Of a stretch of DNA of 40,505 nt, positions 24,500-39,353 are shown one piece after another. Every line of letters starts with the position of its first letter. Within the stretch, counting starts at the first letter, position 1. A program made the translations under genes and the position numbers. The notes beneath the pieces were generated by a model, which saw only the letters and a program-made list of their open reading frames with translations, ran no database searches and was not told the DNA's origin. Source of the stretch: Myxococcales bacterium (GTDB taxonomy: Bacteria > Myxococcota > Myxococcia > Myxococcales > Anaeromyxobacteraceae). The stretch lies in the NCBI GenBank assembly GCA_021818285.1, contig JAKAEO010000007.1, forward strand, positions 1 to 40,505, in the 5' to 3' direction.

Positions 24500-26398
24500 T
24501 CACCGCTCCGGGGCGGGGAGCGGCGCCCGGGGCGGCGCCTCGTGGCAGCTGTCGCAGTCGCCGCCGTCGAGCGGCGGGTGGCCCCCGTCGAGGAGCAGCT
24601 TCCCGCCGTCGGAGACGTGCGGATCGTGGCAGGCGGTGCAGCGGGCCCGCTCGACCGACCAGCCGCCGTGGGCCGCCGCCAGGTCGGGCGAGCCCAGCTC
24701 GTGGCAGCCGGCGCAGAGCTGCGGCACGGCGTCGACGAGCAGCTTCGGCTGGTCGGAGGCGTGGCCCCGGTGGCAGCCGAGGCAGCCGCCGCCGTCGACC
24801 GGCGCGTGGACGGTGGCGCCGGGCTTCGCGAGCCGGGCCTTCAGGGCGCCGTGGCAGCCGAGGCACAGCGCCTCGGGGCCCCGCGCCAGGAGCTTCGGCT
24901 CCTTCGAGCCGTGCGGGTCGTGGCAGGCGGTGCACTTCCCCCGCGCGAAGGGCTGGTGCTTCGACCGGGCGCGGACCCAGATCTTCTGGATGCCGATGTG
25001 ACACTGGAGGCAGACCGCGCCGACCTCCGGCTTCACCAGGCCGGCCTTCCCGGCGGCGTGCGGGGTGTGGCACCCGTCGCAGGCCCCGCCGGCGAAGGGG
25101 GCGTGGAGCTTCCCGCCCTCCCGGGCCTGGAGCATGCCCTGGTGGCACTTCAGGCACTGGTTGCCGATCCCGGCGCGGATCAGGCGGGGCGCGCCGGAGG
25201 CGTGGGGGTCGTGGCAGTCGGTGCAGGTCCCGCGGGGCTCCTCGCCGTGGATGCGCGAGGGCCTCGCGGCGCTCTTCCCCTTCGCGTGGCAGGAGAGGCA
25301 GAGCGGCTCGACGGCGGCGCCGAGCAGGTGCGGCCCCTTCGCGCCGTGCGGATCGTGGCAGGCGGTGCAGTTGCCGGCGCGCACCGGGGCGTGGACCGAG
25401 CGGCTCGACGCCCAGCCCCTGGCCCGCGCGTGGCAGCTGGCGCAGAGCTCCGCCTGCGGCGCGACCAGCATCGCCGGGCGGTCGCCGGCGTGCGGCCGGT
25501 GGCAGCCGTTGCAGCGCCCCTGCGCCGCCGGCCGGTGGGCACCGGCGCCGGCGATCCGCTCGCCGACGTCGCCGTGGCAGTTGGTGCAGAGGTCGGGACG
25601 GGCGGCGGTGAGCAGCGCCCCGCGGTCCGAGTCGTGCGGGTCGTGGCAGGTCGTGCAGGTGCCGGCTGCGACCGGCGCGTGGACCACCTTCTCCTTCTGA
25701 TCCTCCGCCCGGTCGGAGTGGCAGCCGAGGCACAGGTCCGGCTCGGCCTGGGCGGCGAAGGGCTTCCCCGGGGCGGGCGCGTGGCAGGAGGCGCAGTCGG
25801 AGGCCGGCGGGTGGACCACCGCGCGCAGCAGGGAGTCGTTCCCGCCGTGGACGTCGTGGCAGGTGGTGCAGTCCACCGACGCCACCGGGAGGTTCCCGTG
25901 GACCTTCTCCACGCCGGCGTGGCAGCCGGCGCAGAGCTTCGCCGGCGGGGCCCGCAGCAGGGCCGGCCCCGCCGAGGCGTGCGGCGCGTGGCAGCCGGTG
26001 CAGCGCACCGCGTCCGGCCCGCCGCCGTGGTTCGCGTGGAGCGCCCGCCCGGAGTGGCAGCCGGCGCAGAGGTCGGGCTGCTCGGTCTCCGGCGCCGCCT
26101 CGCCCGCGGCCGGGTGGGAGCGGTGGCAGGTGGCGCAGCCGTCGGCGTCGGCGAACGGGGGGTGGACCTGCGCGGCCTTGCGCTCGGCGGCCATCGCCGG
26201 GCCGTGGCAGCGACCGCAGTCGTCGCCGGTGTCGCGCTGCGCGGCGGCGCTGGCCACGGCCGCGGGGGGCTGCGGCTCCGCGGCGGCGGGCCCCGGCGCG
26301 GCCAGGGCCAGGGCGCAGAGGACGAGCGCGAGCCGCGTCGGTGGGTCCGTCGGCGCCCTCCGGGCGGCCGTGGGCGGGTGGCGTGGGTCCGGGAACAA
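24500..26398 (-). CDS. 24-heme c-type cytochrome (secreted, repeat protein)
   Basis: 632 aa. After a Sec-like signal segment (about residues 20-40, ending AAAEP), the protein contains 24 CXXCH heme-c sites, from C61 to C615, and no other domain. Hemes come in alternating pairs in ~45-residue units: an LCxxCH site, a VHxP spacer, then a CxxCHDPH or CxxCHxPH site followed by a leucine/lysine pattern. CxxCHDPH recurs seven times. This is a doubled-CXXCH multiheme family, expected to form an electron wire in the periplasm or on the cell surface for metal or other terminal electron acceptors. The in-frame start used is a TTG at 26398 with no ribosome site, so the exact N-terminus is uncertain. No porin-cytochrome partner is nearby. 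Confidence 0.9.
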   Translation of the reverse strand: MFPDPRHPPTAARRAPTDPPTRLALVLCALALAAPGPAAAEPQPPAAVASAAAQRDTGDDCGRCHGPAMAAERKAAQVHPPFADADGCATCHRSHPAAGEAAPETEQPDLCAGCHSGRALHANHGGGPDAVRCTGCHAPHASAGPALLRAPPAKLCAGCHAGVEKVHGNLPVASVDCTTCHDVHGGNDSLLRAVVHPPASDCASCHAPAPGKPFAAQAEPDLCLGCHSDRAEDQKEKVVHAPVAAGTCTTCHDPHDSDRGALLTAARPDLCTNCHGDVGERIAGAGAHRPAAQGRCNGCHRPHAGDRPAMLVAPQAELCASCHARARGWASSRSVHAPVRAGNCTACHDPHGAKGPHLLGAAVEPLCLSCHAKGKSAARPSRIHGEEPRGTCTDCHDPHASGAPRLIRAGIGNQCLKCHQGMLQAREGGKLHAPFAGGACDGCHTPHAAGKAGLVKPEVGAVCLQCHIGIQKIWVRARSKHQPFARGKCTACHDPHGSKEPKLLARGPEALCLGCHGALKARLAKPGATVHAPVDGGGCLGCHRGHASDQPKLLVDAVPQLCAGCHELGSPDLAAAHGGWSVERARCTACHDPHVSDGGKLLLDGGHPPLDGGDCDSCHEAPPRAPLPAPER

Positions 26399-33160: not shown

Positions 33161-36100
33161 TCAGAACGAAAGCTCCAACCCCATCCGGAAGGTGCGCGGG
33201 TCCTGGAAGGCGGTGGGCCGCCCGTAGTTCGGATTCACGGCGGCGCGCAGTCCCGTGAGCGCCCGGAGGTACGCGAGGTCGGGACAGGCGTCGCGCAGCG
33301 CCGCGCCCGGGTTGGGCGCACCGGCGACGTTCACCGCCTGGCAATGCTCCCCGGCGATGGGGGAGGCCGCGTTCTTCGTGTACCTCTGGTCCACCGCGAT
33401 CGGCGTCCGCGCGTCGAGGGCGTTGAGGACGTCCAGCCGCGCCCGCAGCGCCGCGGACCCGCCCAGCGCCACCTCGACCTGTGCCCGGAGATCGACCTGG
33501 TTCACGAACGGCGTGCGCCCCGCCATGCCGCGGGGGACGAGCAGGGAATACCCGGCGCCGTAGAGCGGATGGGCGGCGGTGGCACTCACCGGGGATCCGC
33601 TCGAGCCGGTGTAGCCGGCTCCCAGGGTCGCGGCGACCCGGGGCAGCACGTCGAGGCGCCGCGCCGCGTAGACCTTCACGAGGTGCGTGCGGTCGGCCGG
33701 AAGCAGCCCGTACTGGTTGCCCACGAGGGAGGGGAGGTCGTAGGCGGGGGTGATGTTGCTCCACCCGGCCGCCGGGCCGGCGTAGTTCCCGCGCAGCTGC
33801 GACCAGGTGTAGCTCGCGAGCGCGAGCCACTTCCCGGACCACGCCTTCGCCGCCCGGAAGGTCACGCCGTCGTAGGAGCGCACGGGCTTGGGGTAGGACG
33901 CGAGATAGCGGCGCCTCGTCAACGGATCGTTGACCCAGACGCCGCGCGGATCCACGCGCACCGGCGAGGGGGTGCCGCCGTACTGGTAGTCGAAGGCGCT
34001 CCCCTCCCCGGGGTTGGCGATGAAGAAGCCGACGCCGTCGTTGAAGCCGATGTCCTCGATCACCCTCCCCTGCCGGCGCCCCTGGTAGTCCACGCCCAGC
34101 GTGAGGTCGGTGACGATCTCGTACTCCGCCGTCGCGCCGAACTGGTCCACGTACTGGCCGCGGAGGTCCGGCGCGACCGGGACCGTGCTGGGGAGCAGGG
34201 CAGCCGTCGCGGGATTCCCCTGGACGTCGTAGCCCCAGTCCGGGACGAGGGCGGTACAGGTGCGCGGATCGTACGGGGCGCTTCCGGGCGAGCTGAACCC
34301 GGGACAGCTGTTCGCGGCGTACGCGGCCCAGACGGCGTTCGTGCTCCAGAAGGAGTAGGTGCCCAGGGACAGCGGGATGGTCTCGTAGTAGCGCCCCCAC
34401 GCCGCCGCGACCTTGGCGCGTCCCTGGCCGGTGGGGTCCCAGATCGCCTGCACGCGCGGCGCGAAGGAATCGCGAATGCGGATGCGCGCCCGCGGATCCG
34501 CGTTCAGGGAGTTGTCCTGGTCCTGCGCCTCCCAGCGCAGGCCGGCGTTGACGGTGAGGGAGGGAACCGGCTGCCAGGAGTCCTGCAGGAAGACCGCGGG
34601 GGAGAGGCTGCGGCCGCGCGACTCGTAGTCCTGGAACAGGGTGAGGTCGCCGGGCGCCAGGCCCGGCGGCCGGACCTCGCCCGGAACGTAGGCGGCCTCG
34701 AAGGCGCCGTTGGCGGGGTCGCCGTCGTCGTAGTAGTTGAAGGAGAGGGAGTGATCGCGCCTGTAGGCGCGCGTCACCTCCACGTCGGCGCCGAGCTTCA
34801 CCTGGTGGGTCCCCAGGGCCCGTCCCAGCCAGGAGACGGCCGCCTTCGCCTGCCACCGCTGCAGGTGCAGGTCGAGCCACTGCCCTCCGCCGGTGACGTA
34901 GCCCGCGACCGGGCAGGCCATCGCCCCGGCCTGGCACGCCGGCGGCACCGCCTCGAACGCTCCGAGCGCGATCGGCGGGCCCAGGCCGTACGGCTGCCAG
35001 GAAACGATCGGCGTGGACCAGAGGTCCACGCCGTCGCCGCCGCCCGCCGGGCGGGACGCGTAGTCGTCGCGGTGCCAGCCGGCAGCGACCTCGACGAGGA
35101 GCCGCTTCTCGAGGAAGCGGCCGTTCCACCGCGCCACCGCGTCGAAGAGCGTGTCGCCGGCGCGCAGTGGCCGGCGGTAGGCAGGGGTCCAGAGGCCCGT
35201 GAACCCGTCCTCCTGCGCGGGGCTGCCGAAGACCGCCAGCGTGAAGGTGTGGTCCTCCGTGGGCGCCCAGGTGAGCTTGCTCGTGAAGCGGTACGTCACC
35301 TGCTCGTCGCGGTGGCGCGTCGCCGTGTCGGGGAGGTCGGACATCACCGGGTTCCCCACCGCGTCCTTGGCGATGTCGCCCGCGGGCGTGAGCGCGTTCA
35401 TCCGCAAGGTGCGCTCGGTCACGGTCCGGCTCACCGCGGGGTCGAAGCCCAGGTGGAACCAGAGCCGGTCCTTCCGGATCGGTCCCCCCACCTCGAAGCC
35501 GGCGTCGGCGTCGTAGGAATTCGGCGAGCCCAGGTCCCGCTTCCAGATCGCCTCCCCCAGCCGCCCGGTGGGCTCGGCCGAGCGCTTGAAGCTGACGGCG
35601 GAGAAGAGGGTCCCGTGGAACTCGTTCGAGCCGGAGCGGGTCGCGGCCGAGAGGATGCCCGCCGTCACCCGGCCGTGCTCGGGGAGGTAGTTGCCCGTCT
35701 TCACGTCGAGCTGCTCCACGAACTGCGACGGGACGGACAGGTACAGGCGGTTGTCGAGCGGGTCGGCGACGTCCAGCCCCTCGACGAGGACGCCGTTCTC
35801 CCGGGCCTGGGCCCCGTCAAAACCGCCGTCGGGGCGCGCCGTGGGGGCGAGGGCGGCGGCCGACTCGAACGTCCCCCCCAGCGGCAGGACGTCGAAGGCC
35901 TCCCGCGGGACCACGATGGCGCTCTCCGCCTTGCCGACGTCCACCGCCGGCGGCGCGCCCTTCACCACCTGCTCCTCGAGCCGGACCTGCGCCGGGACGA
36001 GGACCACGTCGGCGCGCAGCGTCTTGTCGATGCGCAGGAGGATGTCGTCCCGGGCGGCGGGAAGGAAGCCCTCGGCGCTCACGCCCAGCCGGTACGGGCC

Positions 36101-36349
36101 GGGCGGGAGGAAGGTGAGGCGGTACCGGCCGTCCTCCTCCGCCACCGCCGACTGCTCGCCCGGGAGGCCGGCGCCGGTCGCGGCTACCCGGGCGCGCGCC
36201 ACCGGCCTGCCCGTCGAGGCGTCGGTGACGACGCCGAAGATGCTGCCGGTGGTCTGCGCCGCGGCCGCGCCGGCCCACGCCAGGCAGAGGGGCGCGACCC
36301 AGCCGATGCCGCGGCCGCAACGTGGAATGCTTCCGTCCTGCCGGCCCAT
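33161..36349 (-). CDS. Oar-like TonB-dependent outer-membrane protein with carboxypeptidase-regulatory domain
   Basis: 1062 aa from an ATG at 36349 with GGAGGGG upstream. A signal peptide (to AAAAQ, residue ~32) is followed by a CarboxypepD_reg-like beta-sandwich at ~33-115 (GSIFGVVTDASTGRPVARARV, split; LPPGPYRLGVSAEGF), a plug-like region (ENGVLVEGLDVADP, FVEQLDVKTGNYLPEHGRVTAG, split), and a long C-terminal beta-barrel that ends in aromatic LELSF, as outer-membrane barrels do. The layout is that of Oar-family proteins of Myxococcota. Likely imports or exports a large substrate or acts in surface behaviour; no ligand visible. It lies 46 bases behind the kinase gene on the same strand, probably one operon. 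Confidence 0.88.
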   Translation of the reverse strand: MGRQDGSIPRCGRGIGWVAPLCLAWAGAAAAQTTGSIFGVVTDASTGRPVARARVAATGAGLPGEQSAVAEEDGRYRLTFLPPGPYRLGVSAEGFLPAARDDILLRIDKTLRADVVLVPAQVRLEEQVVKGAPPAVDVGKAESAIVVPREAFDVLPLGGTFESAAALAPTARPDGGFDGAQARENGVLVEGLDVADPLDNRLYLSVPSQFVEQLDVKTGNYLPEHGRVTAGILSAATRSGSNEFHGTLFSAVSFKRSAEPTGRLGEAIWKRDLGSPNSYDADAGFEVGGPIRKDRLWFHLGFDPAVSRTVTERTLRMNALTPAGDIAKDAVGNPVMSDLPDTATRHRDEQVTYRFTSKLTWAPTEDHTFTLAVFGSPAQEDGFTGLWTPAYRRPLRAGDTLFDAVARWNGRFLEKRLLVEVAAGWHRDDYASRPAGGGDGVDLWSTPIVSWQPYGLGPPIALGAFEAVPPACQAGAMACPVAGYVTGGGQWLDLHLQRWQAKAAVSWLGRALGTHQVKLGADVEVTRAYRRDHSLSFNYYDDGDPANGAFEAAYVPGEVRPPGLAPGDLTLFQDYESRGRSLSPAVFLQDSWQPVPSLTVNAGLRWEAQDQDNSLNADPRARIRIRDSFAPRVQAIWDPTGQGRAKVAAAWGRYYETIPLSLGTYSFWSTNAVWAAYAANSCPGFSSPGSAPYDPRTCTALVPDWGYDVQGNPATAALLPSTVPVAPDLRGQYVDQFGATAEYEIVTDLTLGVDYQGRRQGRVIEDIGFNDGVGFFIANPGEGSAFDYQYGGTPSPVRVDPRGVWVNDPLTRRRYLASYPKPVRSYDGVTFRAAKAWSGKWLALASYTWSQLRGNYAGPAAGWSNITPAYDLPSLVGNQYGLLPADRTHLVKVYAARRLDVLPRVAATLGAGYTGSSGSPVSATAAHPLYGAGYSLLVPRGMAGRTPFVNQVDLRAQVEVALGGSAALRARLDVLNALDARTPIAVDQRYTKNAASPIAGEHCQAVNVAGAPNPGAALRDACPDLAYLRALTGLRAAVNPNYGRPTAFQDPRTFRMGLELSF

Positions 36350-36395
36350 GATCCCCTCCTCCCGGGCGCGCCGTTCGCGCCGGATCGGCCATCCG

Positions 36396-39353
36396 TCACT
36401 CGCCTCCCGATGCTCCGAGCCGCTCGCCCATCGCCCGCGCCTCCGCGAGGAGCGGCAGGTCGGGATCGCCGTCTCGCCAGAGATCGAGGAGCAGGCCCAC
36501 GGCACGCCGCGCCTCCTCGAGGCGCCCGAGCCGCTCCAGGGCCGCGGCCTCGTGGTAGAGGCTCTTCCCGTGGTTCATCGGCCGCAGGAAGCCAGAGTAG
36601 CCCTCGTCGTAGAGGGGACGCCGGGAGAGCCGGAAGGCCTCGACCGCCTCCGCGTCGCGCCCCAGCTCGGCGAGGATCTGGCCGCGGTGGAGCTGGGCCG
36701 CCTGGCCGTGGATGGCCGACAGGCGCGCGAGCGCGTCCTCGCGATCCCCCGCCTTCCAGCTCCGGACCGCCCGGTAGAGCCGCGCGCAGCCGTAGTCCAG
36801 CGGATTCGCTCCCGCGAGGCGCCGCGCTCCCTCCGCGTCGCCCAGGAGGGCGAGCTGCCAGGCCACGCAGACGACCGGCCCCCCACCGGCGGCGAGGAGC
36901 GCCGCCTCGCCTTCGCGGCGGGTCGCGGCGGCGTCCCCTCGCGCCGCGTACAGGAGGGCGCGCCGCAGGTGGACGCTGAAGCGATTCGCGGCGACCCAGG
37001 TCGCCGGCTGCAGCTGTTTTTCCCGGATCCACCCGATGAGGTCGAGGAGCCTGCCGCGCCACTGCGGGGCGCCGCGCCATCCTGCGCCCGCGGCGCCGAT
37101 TCGCGCCCTGAACTCGTCCATCGCGCCCGCGTGGAGGTAGGCCTCCCAGACCCTGCCCGGCCTCGCTCCCGGAGTCGCCACGTACCGCCTCGCCGCCACG
37201 AGCGCCTCGGCGGTCTCGCCGCGCGCCTGGTGCACGAAGGTGAGGTTCTGGTAGTAGGCCGCCGCGTCGGGAGCCTCGGTCCAGCTCTGGACCAGGGCGA
37301 GCGCCTCGTCGAGGCGGCCGAGCTGGACCAGCCGGTCCGGCAGGGAGCTGTCCCGGTGCGGCGCGAGGGCCACCCACCTCTCCATGTAGGGGCGCGCCGC
37401 CTCGAGGTCCAGCTGCATCGCGAGGCGGATGTCGATCGCCTTCTCGTAGCCCCAGGTGTCCTCCGGCGCGGCGTCGATGTACCGGTCGAGCACGGCCACC
37501 GCGTCCCCGAAGCCGTCGAACTCGTCCCCCTCGCGGGCCAGGAACTCGGCGCGGGCCCGCTCCGCGGGGGGGAGGCGGTGGAGGCCCGCCCGCAACGCGC
37601 TGGCCTGGGCGCGGTCCTGCTCGTCGAAGGCGCTGTTGCCGAGGACGCTCCACCTGAGGTCGAGGAAGGCGATCCGCGCGGGCAGGTACCCGGGGTCGGC
37701 GGCGATGGCCTCCAGGTAGCGGCGCCTGGCCTCGTGGAGCTTGTCGGAGTCCTCCTGACCGGCATTCTCGAGCTGCCGGGCCTCGCGGAGCAGCCGCAGG
37801 ACGTCGGGATTCCTCGGGGCCAGCTCCGGGACGGACTTCTCGTCCCGCGGCCGCTCCGTCCGATCCTCGCCCAGCTCCCGGCGCACCCTGACCACGAGCC
37901 TGCCCAGCGCATCCGGCACGCTGCCCGGCCCGACCGCCAGCTCGCGGAGGCCGAAGAGCGGCCGGCCGCGCTCCAGGTCGAGGGCGCGGACCGACAGCTC
38001 GTAGCCCGAGCCGCCGCGCTGCACCGCGGGGACGAGGAGGAGCTGGGCCTGGACCGCCTTCGCCGCCCGCCGGGTCTCCGCTTCGCCGATGACCCGGGGC
38101 GCCGCGCCGCCCGCCTCGTCGGCCAGGGCGGCCGCGAGCCGCCTCCTCGGCACGAGGGCGACGCGACGCGACTGCTGGAGGGCCGCCCGGAAGGAGTCCC
38201 AGTAGCCGCTCAGCGTGGCCTCGCCGGTGGCGTTCTCGGCGTCGGCCATCGCGGTCACGAGCCGGCCCGGCGGCAGGTGGGGGCGGATCCAGATCCAGAC
38301 GGCCGCCGCCACCGCCGCGCCGGTGAGGGCCCAGGCGAGCCAGACGCGCCTGCGGGGCTCGATCGACCGCTGGAACGCGGCGAGGAGGGCGTGCGCCTCG
38401 GCGCCGTTCACGGGCCGCCCCGTCGGGTTCCGTGCCAGCAGCCGGTCCACGAGCTTCTGCAGCGCCGCCGGCGCGCCGGGGATCTCCGGCGCCGTCCCGC
38501 CCTCCGGTACGCCGCGCTCGCGCTCCCGCTCGTACGGCAGCTTCCCGCTGAGGAGCTCGAAGAGCATCACCCCCAGCGCGTACACGTCCGAGCGCTCGTC
38601 GCCGCTCTCCCCCCTCGCCTGCTCGGGCGCCATGTACGCCGGCGTCCCGCCCAGCAGGCTCTCCCGCCCGAAGACCTGGGCCAGCCCGAAGTCCAGCAGC
38701 TTCACCTGCCCGTCCTCGCAGACGAACACGTTCCCGGGCTTCAGGTCCCGGTGCACCACCCCCTGCGCGTGCGCGTGGGCGACGCCCCTCGAGGCCTCGA
38801 CCCCCACCCGCAGCGCCTCCCGCGGCGCGAGCCTTCCCTCCCCGAGCCGCTCCGCCAGCGTCGCGCCCCGCAGGAGCTCCATGATGAGGTACGGGCCGTA
38901 GGCGCACCGCCCCAGGTCGTAGAGGTGGACGATGTTGGGGTGGGCGAGCCGCGCCGCCGCCTCCGCCTCGGCGAGCATCCGGTCGGCCTTGAGCTCCTTC
39001 GGCCCCGCGCGCCGGACGAGCTTGAAGGCCACCGAGCGGCCCAGCTCCAGGTCCCGCGCCTCGTAGACCGTCCCGAAGCCGCCGCGCCCGATCTCGCGCA
39101 CGATCTCGAAGCGGCCGATCCGCTCCCCCGGCGAGGGACCGCGGGGAGGCGGCGCGGAGGGAGGGTCCGATCCTCCCGGCCCGCCGCCTCCTGGCGGCGG
39201 CGCGGACCCGCCGGACCCGCCGGACCCGCCGCCCGCGCCGGCCGGACGGACGAGCTCGAGCAGGAGCTCGGTGAGCGCCCCCGGGCGGACGGTGGCCGCT
39301 GCTTCGCCTCCTGCGGCGCGCTTCGCGCTCCACCGCTCCCCGTTCCCCGGCAC
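36396..39353 (-). CDS. Membrane Ser/Thr protein kinase with large C-terminal TPR-like sensor region
   Basis: 985 aa from a GTG at 39353 with AAGGGGGG upstream; a GTG at 39395 in the same frame lies upstream of the -10 box and is not used. A Gly/Ser/Pro-rich flexible segment (~35-75) precedes a complete Hanks-type kinase: GRGGFGTVYEA (89-99), Lys111 in VAFKLV, HRDLKPGN (201-208), DFG (221-223), GTPAYMAPEQARG and DERSDVYALGVMLFELLSG. A transmembrane helix (~337-356, VWLAWALTGAAVAAAVWIWI) leads to ~630 periplasmic residues: an ABC-solute/adenylate-cyclase-like alpha/beta part, then TPR-like helix pairs (ARRRYLEAIAADPGYLPA, GRLDEALALVQSW, RGETAEALVAARRYV). Senses an envelope signal; likely partner or target gene is the Oar-like protein downstream. 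Confidence 0.93.
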   Translation of the reverse strand: MPGNGERWSAKRAAGGEAAATVRPGALTELLLELVRPAGAGGGSGGSGGSAPPPGGGGPGGSDPPSAPPPRGPSPGERIGRFEIVREIGRGGFGTVYEARDLELGRSVAFKLVRRAGPKELKADRMLAEAEAAARLAHPNIVHLYDLGRCAYGPYLIMELLRGATLAERLGEGRLAPREALRVGVEASRGVAHAHAQGVVHRDLKPGNVFVCEDGQVKLLDFGLAQVFGRESLLGGTPAYMAPEQARGESGDERSDVYALGVMLFELLSGKLPYERERERGVPEGGTAPEIPGAPAALQKLVDRLLARNPTGRPVNGAEAHALLAAFQRSIEPRRRVWLAWALTGAAVAAAVWIWIRPHLPPGRLVTAMADAENATGEATLSGYWDSFRAALQQSRRVALVPRRRLAAALADEAGGAAPRVIGEAETRRAAKAVQAQLLLVPAVQRGGSGYELSVRALDLERGRPLFGLRELAVGPGSVPDALGRLVVRVRRELGEDRTERPRDEKSVPELAPRNPDVLRLLREARQLENAGQEDSDKLHEARRRYLEAIAADPGYLPARIAFLDLRWSVLGNSAFDEQDRAQASALRAGLHRLPPAERARAEFLAREGDEFDGFGDAVAVLDRYIDAAPEDTWGYEKAIDIRLAMQLDLEAARPYMERWVALAPHRDSSLPDRLVQLGRLDEALALVQSWTEAPDAAAYYQNLTFVHQARGETAEALVAARRYVATPGARPGRVWEAYLHAGAMDEFRARIGAAGAGWRGAPQWRGRLLDLIGWIREKQLQPATWVAANRFSVHLRRALLYAARGDAAATRREGEAALLAAGGGPVVCVAWQLALLGDAEGARRLAGANPLDYGCARLYRAVRSWKAGDREDALARLSAIHGQAAQLHRGQILAELGRDAEAVEAFRLSRRPLYDEGYSGFLRPMNHGKSLYHEAAALERLGRLEEARRAVGLLLDLWRDGDPDLPLLAEARAMGERLGASGGE

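Follow-up and report, generated by a model that had tools for sequence, protein, structure and literature searches.

A stand-alone 24-heme cytochrome of an Anaeromyxobacteraceae bacterium, a variant of the 26-heme cytochrome of the 26+16-heme operon and a candidate periplasmic electron wire

Functional and structural characterization of giant multiheme cytochromes (those with more than 20 hemes) is scant. Here we describe a 24-heme c-type cytochrome encoded in a stretch of 40,505 nucleotides from an Anaeromyxobacteraceae genome (assembly GCA_021818285.1, contig JAKAEO010000007.1; the window). The protein is a variant of an already described kind, the 26-heme cytochrome of the 26+16-heme operon. 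In the reading that we prefer, at a probability of roughly 60%, it is an exported MtrA/NrfB-like heme chain that would act as a periplasmic electron wire made of one polypeptide, and incidentally as an electron store, and that derives from this operon. The gene and its parts are as follows.

24500..26398, minus strand: gene of the 24-heme c-type cytochrome, 632 amino acids, with a TTG start (start codon uncertain) and the stop at 24500-24502
26276..26398, minus strand: putative Sec signal peptide, residues 1-41, as read from the sequence, ending in TRLALVLCALALAAPGPAAA and followed by EPQ; no lipobox (LVLC)
25796..26218, minus strand: hemes 1-6, three two-heme units (residues 61-201), in register with relatives
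25733..25795, minus strand: heme 7, unpaired (phase break), with DCxxCHA..PAS..PF conserved in stand-alone relatives
24557..25732, minus strand: hemes 8-23, eight two-heme units of about 48 residues, of which hemes 14-22 match MtrA one to one
24503..24556, minus strand: heme 24 and the C-terminal tail, where most relatives continue with 4-8 more hemes

Heme motifs and distal ligands

Exactly 24 CXXCH motifs are present in the product, between residues 61 and 619; 5000 shuffled versions of the 632-residue protein contained 0.3 on average and 4 at most. The assignment of the minus strand as coding is backed by codon-position GC, and the sole cysteine outside the motifs lies within the putative signal peptide. 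Pfam and NCBIfam searches returned heme-repeat families only (PF09699 matched 11 times, E = 4e-119), in agreement with the initial annotation, which had counted 24 motifs and no other domain. Profiles of the doubled CXXCH motif scored above their curated cut-offs, namely PF09699 with 388.5 bits against 20.6 and TIGR01905 with 387.2 against 25.2. The cut-off of TIGR03508 (DmsE family decaheme) was also passed (234.5 against 192.2 bits), solely by summing over four repeat matches, and automatic annotation may for this reason name the 24-heme protein a decaheme cytochrome.

Successive motifs are 21-28 residues apart, mostly 23 and 25 in alternation, with a pair repeat of about 48 residues. The regular spacing noted earlier is thus present, with a period longer than the 45 residues proposed. 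Eleven motifs are of the CxxCHxxH type and alternate with the 13 others, apart from the phase break at heme 7 and the unpaired heme 24, and the twelve two-heme units of the initial annotation are an approximation to three units, a lone heme 7, eight units and a lone heme 24. A further 27 histidines lie outside the motifs, and 24 of them occupy expected distal-ligand positions. In an alignment with nine stand-alone relatives, 21 of these distal histidines are present in all nine, one is present in each of the eight sequences that reach its position, and one in eight of nine; H124 is kept in five of nine, in a stretch that is locally misaligned. Judging from these positions, the protein most likely has one distal histidine per heme and is an all-bis-histidine 24-heme cytochrome.

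The initial annotation had taken the near-identical DNA of about 24 bases around several CxxCHDPH sites as a mark of internal duplication or gene conversion. The identities exist, with 24, 23 and 23 of 24 bases shared in the comparisons among hemes 13, 19 and 23, and they are not unusual because amino-acid conservation is combined with extreme codon bias: when codons for the same protein were simulated with the gene's own codon usage, the top three identities averaged 23.3, 22.7 and 22.5 (P = 0.28 for those observed). Tandem Repeats Finder found no tandem array in the gene, and members of the longer repeat families mostly share 60-85% identity with the reference copy of their family. There is therefore no sign of recent duplication or conversion, and we reject this explanation. 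The alignment with close relatives, in which each unit pairs with the unit of the same number, indicates instead that the heme repeats are old. The phase break in the region of heme 7 and the end spacing of 27-23-25-28 are seen again in most of these relatives, either unchanged or differing by one residue at most.

Relatives and heme number

Relatives were sought in 23 other genomes of the same family, with one genome per species. Stand-alone genes with 28 hemes were found in G006, G011 and G014, twice in G017 and once in G021. A 32-heme relative is present in G022 and one with 31 visible hemes in G023, where the first heme is cut by the contig end; a second copy in G022 has 23 hemes. Variation in heme number, which had been suggested for strains from the window alone, is therefore real among relatives in the family (23, 24, 28 and 32 in stand-alone genes), with genus g5 constant at 28 hemes in all five genes. 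Aligned unit by unit, hemes 1-24 of the window protein pair with hemes 1-24 of each 28- or 32-heme relative, and the 23-heme copy pairs with hemes 1-23, which places the differences at the C-terminal end. Between G021a and G022a, which are 76% identical, a clean in-frame gap of 96 residues spans four hemes, equal to twice the 48-residue unit. Assembly collapse is an unlikely cause of the count of 24, as each heme has a one-to-one counterpart in other genomes. A scan of a collection of genome contigs returned distant multiheme proteins only, and a scan of viral contigs returned no relatives.

A further related family comprises a 21-heme protein in G001 (L051:5068-7365, minus strand), which has a long proline-rich tail, and a 19-heme protein in G029 (L067:5924-7876, minus strand); the two have in common a different spacing pattern, with gaps of 33-43 residues between motifs. 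Separately, the genome that carries the window encodes a 9-heme protein (L058:3713-5002, plus strand, contig C306) and an 11-heme protein (L062:3198-5645, plus strand, contig C119), which resemble adjacent 13- and 11-heme genes of a Planctomycetota contig (L043:5092-6507 and L043:2320-5088).

Operon cytochromes and direction of change

A four-gene core encoding a 26-heme cytochrome, a 16-heme cytochrome, a prolyl isomerase and a six-bladed propeller has been described in partner bacteria of ANME, in Desulfuromonadales and in Anaeromyxobacter (Skennerton et al. 2017, PMC5539420), and the OetABI conduit was described in the same bacteria (Murali et al. 2023, PMC10553843). The 26/16-heme operon is probably the Oet-type cluster of the latter authors. 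In the clusters of more distant relatives we observed a PPIC-type prolyl isomerase, lipoproteins (one of them GNA1162-like), NHL and other beta-propellers, and a 740-residue protein, F2, whose sequence reads as an outer-membrane barrel. Within the phylum the operon cytochromes, one of 26 and one of 16 hemes, are encoded side by side, and almost every locus examined has these same counts; the 26-heme count was constant in the operon copies examined, and the 16-heme partner of G112 shows 11 hemes in its readable stretch.

The pair is fused into a single 42-heme protein in G012, G023 and G113. Single open reading frames with 42 CXXCH motifs lie at L065:807-4058 (plus strand), L054:7752-11042 (minus strand) and L056:4226-7828 (minus strand), and their motif spacing equals or closely follows what an end-to-end joining of the adjacent 26- and 16-heme proteins from other genomes would give. 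On the tree, these apparent fusions occupy two or more distinct branches.

In a tree built on 16 shared hemes, the stand-alone proteins group together (91/77) and are sister to the 42-heme fusions of G012 and G023; support for these twelve sequences together is 100/100, and the operon 26-heme proteins lie outside them. Given this sister relationship, parsimony on the tree favors C-terminal loss from a 42-heme fusion as the most likely origin of the 24-heme form, over the growth by internal duplication supposed earlier; this direction presupposes a root at the operon clade and a moderately supported node (91/77). Hemes 25-32 of the 32-heme relatives find their best in-register match in hemes 27-34 of the G012 and G023 fusions and in hemes 1-8 of 16-heme proteins. 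The 26/16 boundary is where the window protein stops, within the linker through which relatives extend, and a search after its stop for a frameshifted remnant of lost C-terminal hemes found none. Independent fusions may be an alternative to descent from one 42-heme fusion.

Export and genomic neighborhood

The N terminus of the window protein is hydrophobic and export-like. A lipobox-like motif, read by eye, is present in six of the eight relatives with a readable N terminus and absent from the window protein, and the localization of the window protein may thus differ from that of lipobox-bearing relatives. The gene is flanked by genes for gamma-glutamyltransferase (GGT), a Cys/Met PLP enzyme, GlmU and GlmS. 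No other open reading frame with CXXCH repeats occurs in the window and no porin lies beside the gene, as the initial annotation had stated. A large outer-membrane barrel with an OMP_b-brl_4 and a carboxypeptidase-regulatory-like domain is encoded at 33164-36574 of the window (minus strand), adjoining a protein-kinase-domain protein. It is the nearest barrel, 7 kb from the cytochrome with unrelated genes in between, and no link to the cytochrome was seen. The neighbors of stand-alone genes differ between genera and are conserved only between close pairs.

These observations bear on the possibility that the protein crosses the outer membrane inside a distantly encoded porin, as MtrA does in MtrB. 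The in-register homology to MtrA described below would fit such a conduit, as would the position of the 26-heme cousin beside F2. However, neither the MtrB/PioB family (PF11854) nor a match to the operon barrel protein or the operon prolyl isomerase was found in the genome of the window protein, which is 87% complete and may thus encode the absent partners in unassembled parts. Four g5 genomes with only stand-alone genes, one of them listed at 100% completeness, likewise gave no match to the isomerase or the barrel protein. Together with the shifting neighbors and the remote OMP_b-brl_4 barrel, the lack of MtrB and operon-barrel matches in the genome makes a porin conduit improbable.

Discussion

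The periplasmic wire is the reading that we favor. The wire would pass electrons between quinol oxidoreductases of the inner membrane and either acceptors in the outer membrane or other cytochromes of the periplasm, with electron-transfer spacing presumably continuous along all 24 hemes. The location would be periplasmic rather than at the surface, and charge storage a side effect. When a profile was built from the stand-alone group, its hemes 14-22 paired one to one with nine consecutive hemes of MtrA (PDB 6r2q_A; E = 1.9e-22). In MtrA the hemes are 3.9-6.5 A apart edge to edge, and its ten hemes span 80 A (PMC7198977). By this analogy, the homology supports a continuous chain for nine of the 24 hemes and, if the protein were extended like MtrA, the whole chain would measure about 20 nm, comparable with the periplasm. 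AlphaFold2 models were too poor to use (pLDDT 33 for the protein alone and 43 with a four-heme repeat alignment). With regard to origin, a gene detached from the 26+16-heme operon may have lost C-terminal hemes stepwise, from a 42-like form through 32 and 28 to 24.

A more specific version, which we regard as rather unlikely, is that of a periplasm-spanning wire of one polypeptide whose length changes in discrete steps of two units, with four hemes and about 96 residues each (24, 28 and 32 hemes), descended from a fused 42-heme conduit and now working without porin, isomerase or propeller. If true, it would provide a natural length series relating heme number to electron transfer across the envelope.

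Slightly less probable than the porin conduit is that the protein serves mainly as a capacitor, holding electrons in times of acceptor shortage, such that heme number would matter and the direction of the chain would not. Charge storage has been proposed for large cytochromes in A. dehalogenans, whose proteins include one with 40 hemes (PMC2330069), and the drift of heme number among stand-alone genes would agree with this. The unit register and most distal ligands are, however, strictly conserved over about 50% divergence, suggesting a constrained chain.

Least probable of all is a secreted subunit of an extracellular nanowire polymerized end to end like OmcS, OmcE or OmcZ, for which the export-like N terminus, the many hemes and the lack of a visible membrane anchor or porin partner could speak, but known filament cytochrome subunits are small, with 4-8 hemes, most relatives carry the lipobox-like motif, and no filament cytochrome is named among the PDB matches (E thresholds of 0.01 for the protein and 0.001 for the profile), which comprise MtrA, 16-heme proteins of the Hmc type and other entries, a few of them under generic and uninformative names.

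Beyond the wire itself, our results indicate that the two members of a 26+16-heme pair with a link to syntrophic and extracellular electron transfer can become fused, and that one of the pair's relatives can exist on its own. Homologs with 23, 24, 28, 32 and 42 hemes in conserved register, within and outside the operon, make the roles of heme count, chain length and partner proteins testable.

Among known systems, MtrA and the DmsE-type decahemes (6r2q_A; TIGR03508) share with the window protein nine hemes in register and the CxxCHxPH and HAP(V/F) distal-ligand motifs. MtrA has 10 hemes and is sheathed by the MtrB barrel, whereas the window protein has 24 and no MtrB detected in its genome. 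The high-molecular-weight 16-heme cytochromes Hmc (1gws, 1h29, 2cvc) are large periplasmic multiheme proteins, as the window protein is presumed to be, and give a weak profile match (E = 4e-9), but their heme spacing is irregular and the matches overlap out of register. The Skennerton/Oet 26-heme cytochrome is homologous, with window hemes 1-24 corresponding to its hemes 3-26 in an alignment to G022_26, and it has the same C-terminal boundary, the same 25-28 end spacing and a composition of heme repeats only. It differs in having 26 hemes rather than 24; near the window gene there is neither a 16-heme partner nor a gene for a prolyl isomerase, a propeller or an operon-type barrel, and the window protein belongs to a separate stand-alone clade with variable heme number. 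The 42-heme fusions of G012 and G023 form the nearest sister group, their hemes 1-26 corresponding to the window protein plus one extra unit on the N-terminal side. In contrast to the window protein, these fusions carry 16 more C-terminal hemes and have smaller cytochromes encoded nearby, accompanied in G012 by a prolyl isomerase and an NHL propeller.
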